From assembly GCA_019635585.1 (NCBI GenBank), contig JAHBZE010000001.1, forward strand, positions 434,001 to 498,000: DNA of 64,000 nucleotides, given 5' to 3'. The translations under genes and the position numbers were made by a program. Source of the stretch: Xanthobacteraceae bacterium (lineage in GTDB: Bacteria > Pseudomonadota > Alphaproteobacteria > Rhizobiales > Xanthobacteraceae). Below are positions 26,717 to 28,860 of the stretch, one piece after another; positions within the stretch are counted from its first letter, which is position 1, and each line of letters starts with the position of its first letter. The notes beneath the pieces are model-generated. The model was not told the origin of the DNA. It saw only the letters and a list, made by a program, of their open reading frames with translations, and did no database searches.

Positions 26717-26904
26717 AGTAGCTGGATACCAAGTCCTTGGAATCGATGGAACTTCCAGTTCCCCGACAAGGCAAAATGCGCCCTAACTGATTGATCCGGT
26801 GTTGCAATTTCACCCTAGCGGGCACCCGACATTGCCGTTACGTTATGCGGGTTTTCTGACTTTGAAATTGCTGAGTCGGCTCAAGCCGAAACTCGGGGGG
26901 CATT

Positions 26905-27483
26905 ATGAAGAAATTTGCCGTCATCGGCGCCGTTATCGCGGCGCTCTCTTTCGCTGCGCCTGTTCAGGCTGCGGACGCACCGATCGTCTACAAAGCACCG
27001 CAAGCGTTCAACTGGAACGGCTTCTACGTCGGCGCGCACATCGGCTACGGCTGGGGCGATGCGAGCGGTCTCAACCTCGACGGCTTCGTCGGCGGCGCAC
27101 AGATCGGCTTCAACGCTCATCTGTCCTCGAACATCGTGATTGGTCTCGAGACCGACATCTCCGCGACGAACATCGGCGCCGGCGCCGTCGATCAGCCCTG
27201 GATCTGGAGCGGCCGCGCCCGTCTCGGCTACGCGATGGATCGCACGTTGATTTACGGCACCGTTGGTGTTGCAGCCACGCGCCTGGATGGCGGCGCAGGC
27301 GGCACGGCCGGCTTTATCGGCGCAGTATACGGCGCGGGTGTCGAATGGGCATGGACCCGCAACTGGACAATGCGCGTCGAGTATCTGCACTACGACTTCG
27401 GCGACGAAATTCTTCCGCTATTCGCGGCGCCGGTTAATCTCAATACGGATGTGGTGCGCTTCGGCGTCAACTATCGCTTCTAA
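26905..27483 (+). CDS. Outer-membrane beta-barrel protein (Omp31-type), first of three
   Basis: 192 aa. A signal peptide (MKKFAVIGAVIAALSFAAPV, cleavage near QAAD) is followed by FNWNGFYVGAHIGYGWG, alternating barrel strands, and a C-terminal GVNYRF ending in Phe, the BAM recognition signal. This is the small 8-strand porin-like family seen in multiple copies in Bradyrhizobium-type genomes. First of three tandem paralogs, each with its own hairpin terminator. Substrate, if any, unknown. The 188-bp region upstream holds no motif I recognise. Confidence 0.92.
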   Translation: MKKFAVIGAVIAALSFAAPVQAADAPIVYKAPQAFNWNGFYVGAHIGYGWGDASGLNLDGFVGGAQIGFNAHLSSNIVIGLETDISATNIGAGAVDQPWIWSGRARLGYAMDRTLIYGTVGVAATRLDGGAGGTAGFIGAVYGAGVEWAWTRNWTMRVEYLHYDFGDEILPLFAAPVNLNTDVVRFGVNYRF

Positions 27484-27499
27484 AAGTTAAGTCACGTAC

Positions 27500-27523
27500 A
27501 CCGGGCGGAGCGATCCGCCCGGT
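27500..27523 (+). terminator. Hairpin terminator after the first barrel gene
   Basis: 10-bp perfect stem (ACCGGGCGGA / TCCGCCCGGT) with a GCGA loop, followed by TTAATTT. The short T tract is weak, so some read-through into the second barrel gene is likely. Confidence 0.7.
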
Positions 27524-27544
27524 TTAATTTCGGGGGACTATAAT

Positions 27545-28108
27545 ATGAAAAAAATTGCTATCGCTGCGGCAGCTTTGGCTGCGATTGTTTTCGGCGCGCC
27601 CGCTAAAGCGGCTGACATGCCGATCTACAAAGCAGAGCCGGTGTTCAACTGGAGCGGTTTCTATATCGGCGCGCACGTCGGCTGGGGCCGTGAAAACGGA
27701 TCGGACGCCAGCGGTTTCATTTACGGCGGTCAGCTTGGCTACAATTGGCAGTTCAACCGCAACTGGGTCGTCGGCATCGAAGCCGACATCACCGGCACTG
27801 ACATTAGCGAGCCGACCATTCCGGCCCGCGTTGATTATTTCGCAAGCGTCCGTGGCCGTCTTGGCTACTCGATGGGCCGCACGCTGGTATACGGCACCGG
27901 CGGCTGGGGCACCGCACAGGTCACCGGCGCTGGCGTCAGCGTAACGGGCGACGCCTGGGTTCTCGGCCTGGGTCTCGAATACGCGCTCAACCACAACTGG
28001 TCGGTTCGCGGCGAATACCTGCATTACGAATTCGACGACAACGGTCTGCCGGGCAACGCCTATGCGCAGATCTTCCGCGTCGGTGCGAACTACCGCTTCG
28101 GCTGGTAA
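27545..28108 (+). CDS. Outer-membrane beta-barrel protein (Omp31-type), second of three
   Basis: 187 aa with signal peptide MKKIAIAAAALAAIVFGAP, cleavage near KAAD. Barrel landmarks match the first copy: FNWSGFYIGAHVGWGR, QLGYNWQFNRNWVVGIEADI, RGRLGYSMGRTLVYGTGG, and GANYRFGW at the C-terminus. Here two residues follow the usual terminal Phe. It is more similar in its middle part to the third copy (QLGYNWQFNRN versus QAGYNWQFSRN) than to the first. ATG at 27545 directly after a purine-rich GGGGGACTATAAT stretch. Ends at a strong terminator. Confidence 0.92.
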   Translation: MKKIAIAAAALAAIVFGAPAKAADMPIYKAEPVFNWSGFYIGAHVGWGRENGSDASGFIYGGQLGYNWQFNRNWVVGIEADITGTDISEPTIPARVDYFASVRGRLGYSMGRTLVYGTGGWGTAQVTGAGVSVTGDAWVLGLGLEYALNHNWSVRGEYLHYEFDDNGLPGNAYAQIFRVGANYRFGW

Positions 28109-28125
28109 CCACCCGATCGAATGAG

Positions 28126-28152
28126 AAAAGCCCCGGCCTCGCCGGGGCTTTT
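28126..28152 (+). terminator. Rho-independent terminator after the second barrel gene
   Basis: 12-bp perfect stem (AAAAGCCCCGGC / GCCGGGGCTTTT) with a 3-nt CTC loop, continuing into T and CG. It isolates the third barrel gene, which has its own promoter region. Confidence 0.85.
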
Positions 28153-28192: not shown

Positions 28193-28229
28193 TTAACCGC
28201 CGCTTAACCGAGCGCTAAGCGCGCATTAA
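28193..28229. promoter_or_regulatory. Array of CtrA half-sites at 11-bp steps
   Basis: TTAA occurs at 28193, 28204 and 28226, with CTAA at 28215. The first two form a perfect TTAA-N7-TTAA box (28193-28207) and the last two a one-mismatch box (28215-28229); all four half-sites are exactly 11 bp apart. The array ends 58 bp upstream of the third barrel gene start. A GATTC (GANTC, the CcrM methylation site) lies at 28259-28263. Cell-cycle control by CtrA is inferred from the consensus. Confidence 0.65.
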
Positions 28230-28287
28230 CCATAAAAACCTAGCCTGCCCGCGAGTTCGATTCATCCCACTCGTATCGGGGGCTACC

Positions 28288-28860
28288 TTGAAGAAGTTTC
28301 TTGTCCTTTGCGCCGCGCTGACCGCGCTTGCACTCGCGCCGACGGCTAACGCCGCGGATATGCCAACGCGGCCGCTCTACAAATACCAGCCGGAAATCGC
28401 GCCGGTATTTAACTGGAGCGGATTCTATGTCGGCGGCCATGTCGGCTACGGCTTCGGCGACGACATCGACGGCTTCCTCGGCGGCTTGCAAGCCGGCTAC
28501 AATTGGCAGTTCTCGCGCAACATCGTGTTCGGTCTCGAAGCCGATATTTCCGGCACCGACATCAACGGCTCGACGGGCGGCATCAATTCGCACATCGATT
28601 ATCTCGGCACCGCTCGCGCACGCGTCGGCTACGTCTGGGATCGCACGATGATCTACGGCACCGGCGGCTTCGCGTTCTCGCGCGCGGCGGCTGCCGGACT
28701 GCACGACACCGATACCGGTTACGCACTTGGTGCCGGTCTCGAATGGGCCTACTCGAATGCGTGGACGCTCAAGGCCGAATACATGTACCACGATCTCGGC
28801 GCGGGCTTCGACGTTTCGACGGTCAAGTTCGGCGCGAATTACCGCTTCAGCGGCTTCTGA
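28288..28860 (+). CDS. Outer-membrane beta-barrel protein (Omp31-type), third of three
   Basis: 190 aa. The start codon is TTG (28288-28290), with CGGGGGC just upstream; the encoded MKKFLVLCAALTALALAPTA is a clear signal peptide (cleavage near NAAD). FNWSGFYVGGHVGYGFGDD, QAGYNWQFSRN and GANYRFSGF mark the same barrel family as the two genes before it. It alone of the three has CtrA-type boxes upstream, so its expression is probably tied to the cell cycle. It ends at a bidirectional hairpin shared with holC. Conserved motifs start right after the TTG, which supports that start. Confidence 0.9.
   Translation: MKKFLVLCAALTALALAPTANAADMPTRPLYKYQPEIAPVFNWSGFYVGGHVGYGFGDDIDGFLGGLQAGYNWQFSRNIVFGLEADISGTDINGSTGGINSHIDYLGTARARVGYVWDRTMIYGTGGFAFSRAAAAGLHDTDTGYALGAGLEWAYSNAWTLKAEYMYHDLGAGFDVSTVKFGANYRFSGF

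Follow-up and report, generated by a model that had tools for sequence, protein, structure and literature searches.

Three genes for outer-membrane beta-barrel proteins follow one another in the 64-kb stretch of DNA analysed here (the window), and the region before the third raises the question of whether a series of evenly spaced TTAA-like half-sites serves as a promoter controlled by the response regulator CtrA. A preliminary description had placed four half-sites (TTAA, TTAA, CTAA, TTAA) in 11-bp steps 58 bp before a TTG-started gene, and direct reading of the window bears these positions out: the half-site starts lie 11 bp apart each time, and 58 nt (28230-28287) separate half-site 4 from the TTG at 28288. 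The barrel genes and the array are laid out as follows, with counts that refer to the orthologs in eight genomes of the genus.

26905-27483, + strand: upstream paralog, barrel 1 (OMP_b-brl), without array
27545-28108, + strand: upstream paralog, barrel 2 (OMP_b-brl), without array
28135-28149, + strand: terminator-like hairpin with a T-rich tail, between barrel 2 and the array
28193-28196, + strand: half-site 1, TTAA; TTAACC in 8/8 orthologs
28204-28207, + strand: half-site 2, TTAA; with half-site 1 a perfect TTAA-N7-TTAA box; TTAA in 7/8, CTAA in G002
28215-28218, + strand: half-site 3, CTAA; CTAA in 6/8, ATAA in G006 and G001, TTAA in 0/8
28226-28229, + strand: half-site 4, TTAA, the first letters of TTAACCAT; TTAA in 8/8; with half-site 3 the putative promoter-proximal box
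28288-28860, + strand: array-preceded outer-membrane beta-barrel gene (OMP_b-brl, PF13505, E 1e-14), 190 aa, TTG start

TTG is the aligned start codon of the third gene in 8/8 orthologs, a weak start kept throughout the genus, and no ATG, GTG or TTG lies between the preceding in-frame stop and this codon in any of the eight; comparison of the protein with solved structures gave no meaningful match. The hairpin between barrel 2 and the array means that the third gene may well have its own promoter, with the reservation that terminator-like hairpins in the region number 4 against a shuffle mean of 4.1 and are weak evidence alone. A CtrA-type box (TTAA-N7-TTAA or a one-base variant) is present in the intergenic region before the third barrel. 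The two upstream paralogs had been described as having none, and the corresponding gaps in the window (26717-26904 and 27484-27544) indeed hold no YTAA-N7-YTAA on either strand. In two relatives (G003:C62 and G004:C170) a single CTAA-N7-CTAA, missing in the window, stands at about -132 of the first-barrel paralog.

The four-part pattern, allowing up to two mismatches, is found at one place in the window, the array itself (where the other strand also matches, with two mismatches), and its maximum count in 100 dinucleotide-preserving shuffles of the window was 0. A search for the barrel covered 41 genomes, including seven same-genus relatives, and the upstream DNA within the genus was then read; together with the organism's own genome (G000, 3.2 Mb in two contigs) the genus set comprises eight genomes. 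The array precedes the orthologous barrel gene in 8/8 of these, and the 11-bp step is exact in every case. Five genomes (G000, G007, G003, G004 and G005) carry the TTAA/TTAA/CTAA/TTAA version, G002 carries TTAA/CTAA/CTAA/TTAA, and G006 and G001 carry TTAA/TTAA/ATAA/TTAA. The earlier wording of one perfect and one near-perfect box thus holds for the window, whereas the perfect first box is variable within the genus, being TTAA-N7-CTAA in G002. The gap between array and start codon ranges from 58 to 65 nt across the eight orthologs, and the 37 bp of the array contain no indels.

Half-sites and spacers have diverged very unequally. Over the 16 half-site columns two of the eight orthologs differ on average by 0.042, and over the 21 spacer columns by 0.485; invariant columns number 14/16 in the half-sites and 4/21 in the spacers. 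None of 100,000 column permutations equalled the observed difference, a figure which, given that the rows share kinship, describes a contrast among columns rather than independent events. The array is also retained despite a differing upstream neighbour: judged by eye, this is a barrel gene in G000, G001, G003, G004 and G005, in G007 and G002 a frame whose end resembles that of the DinB-family gene in the window, and a third frame in G006. Conservation in close relatives had been proposed as the test on which the CtrA reading could fail, and the spaced half-sites were kept in all eight genomes. The array looks, from this pattern of substitution, to be under selection.

Upstream DNA was read for 33 barrel genes from ten genomes, namely G013, G022 and the eight members of the genus; the genes were chosen from a longer list and include five of the ten matches in G000. 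The array stands before the eight orthologs and before 0 of the 25 others, among which is the closest paralog in the same genome (C2:978751, 68% identical). Seven of the eight array genes fall into one clade of the barrel tree (100/98), which makes a single origin likely, with one gene (G001_970222) placed outside at weaker support (84/85). Chance combined with recent common descent would account for an array known from one genus, in which G000/G007 and G003/G004 are close genome pairs; it is scarcely credible in view of spacers that differ by 0.485 per pair beside half-sites that differ by 0.042, and of 25 other barrel genes lacking the array.

The preliminary description had further suggested that CtrA times this barrel only, a restriction that the genome does not support. 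Another OMP_b-brl gene (PF13505, G000:C2:1078608-1079504, minus strand) has five TTAA within 41 bp, TTAA-N7-TTAA included, at about 84-130 bp upstream and in steps of 13, 7, 6 and 11. This cluster is kept in 7/7 genus genomes that have the gene (eight were searched, with none in G005), so exclusivity cannot safely be claimed. The spacers of the cluster are conserved too, and the cluster alone therefore names no regulator; by its letters this barrel is a possible second, differently spaced CtrA target.

What sets the array apart is its phasing rather than the presence of a box. TTAA-N7-TTAA occurs twice in the window against an expectation of 0.03, and 24 times in the 3.2-Mb genome, where the reversed pattern has 14 occurrences; at 1.7 times the control a single box is mildly unusual, and the rarity lies in the four-fold phasing. 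Several of the 24 genomic boxes overlap open frames, one of these standing before a ParA-type gene. Four YTAA at 11-bp steps are found once per genome in 6/8 genus genomes, each time at the array locus (G001 and G006 escape this search because their half-site 3 is ATAA), and elsewhere in the 41 genomes as one match, in a tandem repeat of G026; the reversed control gave 5 matches in 4/41 genomes against 7 forward. Across 397 genomes of the order, a sample in which the organism's own genome is the sole representative of the genus, TTAAC-N6-YTAA-N7-HTAA-N7-TTAAC matched in that genome alone, and the reversed pattern matched in three genomes against one forward, all three outside the genus. Beyond the genus, neither the 41-genome nor the 397-genome search found a four-fold array.

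The regulator that reads these repeats is most readily sought in CtrA itself. A CtrA gene lies around G000:C2:1041588 (NF045991, 412 bits, with 350 as the cut-off), and the genome further encodes a ChpT-family phosphotransferase (PF10090, 101.9 bits, above cut-off) and a RAMA-domain methylase (G000:C1:995136), which we read as CcrM-like. The premise that CtrA binds TTAA-N7-TTAA in alphaproteobacteria likewise stands: the box agrees with published CtrA consensus sites, such as the TTAA-N7-TTAAC of Hyphomonas (PMC7200025), and the sequence starting at half-site 4 is TTAACCAT, the published ungapped CtrA variant (PMC6180460). The likely ancestral role of CtrA has been given as motility and chemotaxis (PMC9437464), and in the present genome the same box stands before genes of these known target classes, flagellar and chemotactic, with TTAA-N7-TTAA preceding the genes for FliX, FlgI, FliO, flagellin and a protoglobin-MCP protein; no Pfam family matched a further box neighbour that we take to be FlgB.

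The longer half-site leads in the same direction. When TTAAC-N(0-16)-TTAAC was sought in the organism's own genome, N6, that is the 11-bp step, accounted for 10/27 rows (17 spacings, binomial P 1.7e-6); the reversed control returned 39 rows against 27, a total summed over all spacings and unsplit. On both strands of the eight genus genomes TTAAC-N6-TTAAC gave 76 matches against 8 reversed. Outside the genus such single-box enrichment is not general, as G011 (3 against 9 reversed), G027 (2 against 12) and G030 (11 against 20) illustrate. Among the individual sites, TTAAGTTGACATTAACSATTGATGTTCTAG, a box with N11-CTAG, recurs near letter-for-letter at G000:C1:1852967-1852996 (minus strand), G007:C1:716088 and G005:C420:26825, and an open frame begins 26 bp from it in G000.

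By eye, the 600 bp before the organism's own ctrA contain no canonical TTAA-N7-TTAA and have TTAACCATTTGCTGGTTAG instead, so that autoregulation, if any, would act through another layout. Directly before the RAMA-domain methylase gene stands CTAA-N6-TTAA, which recalls the TTAA-N6-TTAA described for the P2 promoter of Caulobacter ctrA (PMC11264516).

Other regulators of the same structural class have to be weighed at this point. Trans_reg_C matches number 11 in the genome, and three of these proteins we take, from their sequence and with no family assignment, to be FeuP-like, ChvI-like and CenR-like. The 11-bp direct repeats might be read by an OmpR-family envelope regulator such as CenR, ChvI/BvrR or the FeuP-like protein in place of CtrA, and the 15-mer TTAACCGCCGCTTAA, identical to the first box, indeed lies at G000:C1:667356-667370, 64 bp before the FeuP-like response-regulator gene. 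Direct repeats are likewise the target of CenR, a regulator of envelope genes (PMC9275681). Its motif is described there as TGA-N8-TGA, however, which is unlike the array repeat, and TTAA-N7-TTAA is the CtrA consensus and stands in this genome before flagellar and chemotaxis genes; we hold an OmpR-family regulator other than CtrA to be improbable. CenR in particular was rejected as the array regulator, by eye, on the mismatch between TGA-N8-TGA and the TTAA/CTAA unit. The FeuP-like protein (G000:C1:666645) was in turn considered as a candidate CtrA and rejected, with 189 bits under the NCBIfam CtrA model (cut-off 350); its best NCBIfam score, 235 bits for PmrA, lies under the PmrA cut-off. Binding of CtrA to the array is predicted with considerable confidence.

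Two further elements lie downstream of the array.

28240-28243, + strand: CTAG, probable -10 with a presumed promoter role, 10 nt past half-site 4; CTA in 8/8 and CTAG in 7/8 orthologs
28259-28263, + strand: GATTC, a GANTC site just past the presumed transcription start, with a putative regulatory role

With CTAG at 28240 as the -10, transcription would begin near 28253, and the proximal box would have its 5' nucleotide at about -38. A full CtrA motif lies at -39 in the activated P2 promoter of Caulobacter ctrA (PMC4287350), and the activating position is given as near -35 (PMC6180460); the proximal box would fit a position near -35 if CTAG is the -10. The spacing recurs at other loci. When YTAA-N7-TTAA followed by CTAG was sought in the eight genus genomes with N0 to N30 allowed, N10 made up 17/30 rows. 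These 17 sites form three groups, before the array barrel (5 genomes), before a gene next to a MotE-like gene (8/8) and before an MCP gene (4), so the enrichment amounts to three orthologous groups and not to 17 independent sites; in the latter two the gene was inspected in G000 and the other genomes were assigned by likeness of the site. The reversed control (99 matches against 30) asked for GATC and so offers no fair comparison. The second group consists of CTAA-N7-TTAA-N10-CTAG upstream of the G000:C2:550649 gene in a flagellar region, with the site in 8/8 genomes; the encoded protein (at least 488 aa) had no Pfam match, and the MgtE_N score of the MotE-like neighbour of this 488-aa frame lies slightly below cut-off.

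The same anatomy bears on another explanation, by which the TTAA repeats would belong to a constitutive core promoter rich in AT, or to bent DNA, and be kept for the polymerase and not for a regulator. The stretch that follows the array, CATAAAAACCTAGC, is also largely conserved in the orthologs, as this would predict. The array region, however, yielded no sigma-70-like promoter (shuffles gave a mean of 0.8), and the four-base blocks have stayed in exact 11-bp register as the spacers between them turned over, which makes a constitutive element highly improbable. Further downstream, a GANTC begins 24-33 nt past the array in 6/8 orthologs (the window's and those of G001, G003, G004, G006 and G007), as GATTC, GAGTC or GAATC at neighbouring places; shuffles gave a mean of 1.4 and 0 of 2000 reached 6, with rows that are not independent. 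This points tentatively to methylation by CcrM as an additional input.

We therefore favour, as the probable reading, a promoter under CtrA control for the third barrel gene, with the proximal box at the presumed -35 and the second box in phase with it. Phosphorylated CtrA (CtrA~P), a response regulator of the OmpR/PhoB type that reads 11-bp direct repeats, would occupy the proximal box CTAA-N7-TTAA (28215-28229); this box would replace or overlap the -35 of the promoter and, at about -38, would sit in an activating position from which bound CtrA~P could recruit the polymerase. The second box, TTAA-N7-TTAA (28193-28207), abuts the first in exact phase, so that a second CtrA dimer could share the helix face and touch the first. 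Such a dimer may steepen the response to CtrA~P or shift the time of expression. Net activation appears somewhat more likely than not, and cell-cycle timing of the barrel's expression is slightly favoured; these gradings, like that for binding, are our judgement and were not computed.

CtrA might also act here in the opposite sense, as a repressor or delaying factor, the upstream box and the tight tandem packing lowering or postponing output as at Caulobacter pilA. Upstream CtrA sites at pilA reduce and delay expression, and activity was lowest in an artificial promoter carrying three copies of site 1 at 6-bp spacing (PMC11264516). In the array, moreover, the perfect box is by sequence the more distal of the two and the imperfect one coincides with the presumed -35; at pilA the affinity is lower for the -35 site. 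The closest published counterpart of the two-box layout, a pair of copies spaced 6 bp apart, nevertheless left pilA activity unchanged (PMC11264516), and the presumed place of the proximal box is one suited to activation. With upstream boxes that reduce or delay, a pair that is neutral and a triple that is lowest, the sign of the upstream box's effect is unpredictable here; we regard net repression or delay as possible, if on the unlikely side.

Comparison with described systems helps to place the proposed CtrA promoter. Brucella Omp25, which we take to be a barrel of the same general kind as the one studied here, provides one close counterpart. CtrA is bound upstream of omp25 in Brucella abortus, at -389 to -337, and conditional ctrA mutants have less of selected outer-membrane proteins (PMC10538546; review PMC10787603); both loci thus have a CtrA site, bound there and predicted here, upstream of an alphaproteobacterial outer-membrane protein gene, but here two abutting boxes would lie over and just above the presumed -35. 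The pilA promoter of Caulobacter crescentus resembles the array in having a CtrA box at -35 and more boxes upstream, and differs in having four of them at irregular distances (31, 3 and 78 bp), two of which (sites 2 and 3) have a 6-bp inner spacing, whereas the array has two boxes, gapless and in phase (PMC11264516). A pair of CtrA boxes is also present at the strong hemE promoter of Caulobacter, where TTAA-N7-TTAA and TTAA-N7-CTAA are bound cooperatively; at hemE, however, the second overlaps the -10 and the pair represses (PMC11264516).

Dense intergenic clusters of TTAA-N7-TTAA are further known from alphaproteobacterial phages, among them MMDA13 with four 12-bp direct repeats, but those arrays serve phage genes and the MMDA13 repeat is a 12-bp motif (PMC9437464). 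Tandem boxes of the OmpR/PhoB type, for instance the TGA-N8-TGA of CenR, resemble the array in placing direct repeats roughly a helical turn from each other; their reader is a response regulator of the winged-helix kind, as is proposed here, and the half-site differs (PMC9275681). CtrA sites upstream of an outer-membrane protein gene (omp25) and CtrA promoters with several sites (pilA, hemE) are already known, and the array is very probably a real switch of this known kind. Its distinguishing detail is the gapless, in-phase pair of boxes, shared throughout the genus and seen nowhere else among the genomes searched; the titles and beginnings of abstracts returned by literature searches describe no gapless array of four CtrA half-sites upstream of a barrel gene.

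Going further, we tentatively speculate, while regarding the full picture as doubtful, that in this genus one duplicated barrel gained a four-protomer CtrA platform: gapless and in phase, with a third half-site kept weak over the -35 and, at the start, a CcrM site, it would switch one surface protein steeply at a single CtrA~P threshold, with a reset by methylation, and leave the neighbouring paralogs aside. If true, this platform would be a naturally minimal two-dimer module of CtrA cooperativity. The work on pilA has raised the question of whether adjacent CtrA dimers sharpen or delay a promoter (PMC11264516), and the exact phase of the abutting boxes, together with a third half-site conserved as imperfect in 8/8 orthologs, makes the array a simple natural construct for this question of cooperation between dimers. 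Altogether, an envelope protein joins the list of likely targets of CtrA in this little-known genus, in an unusually clean layout.
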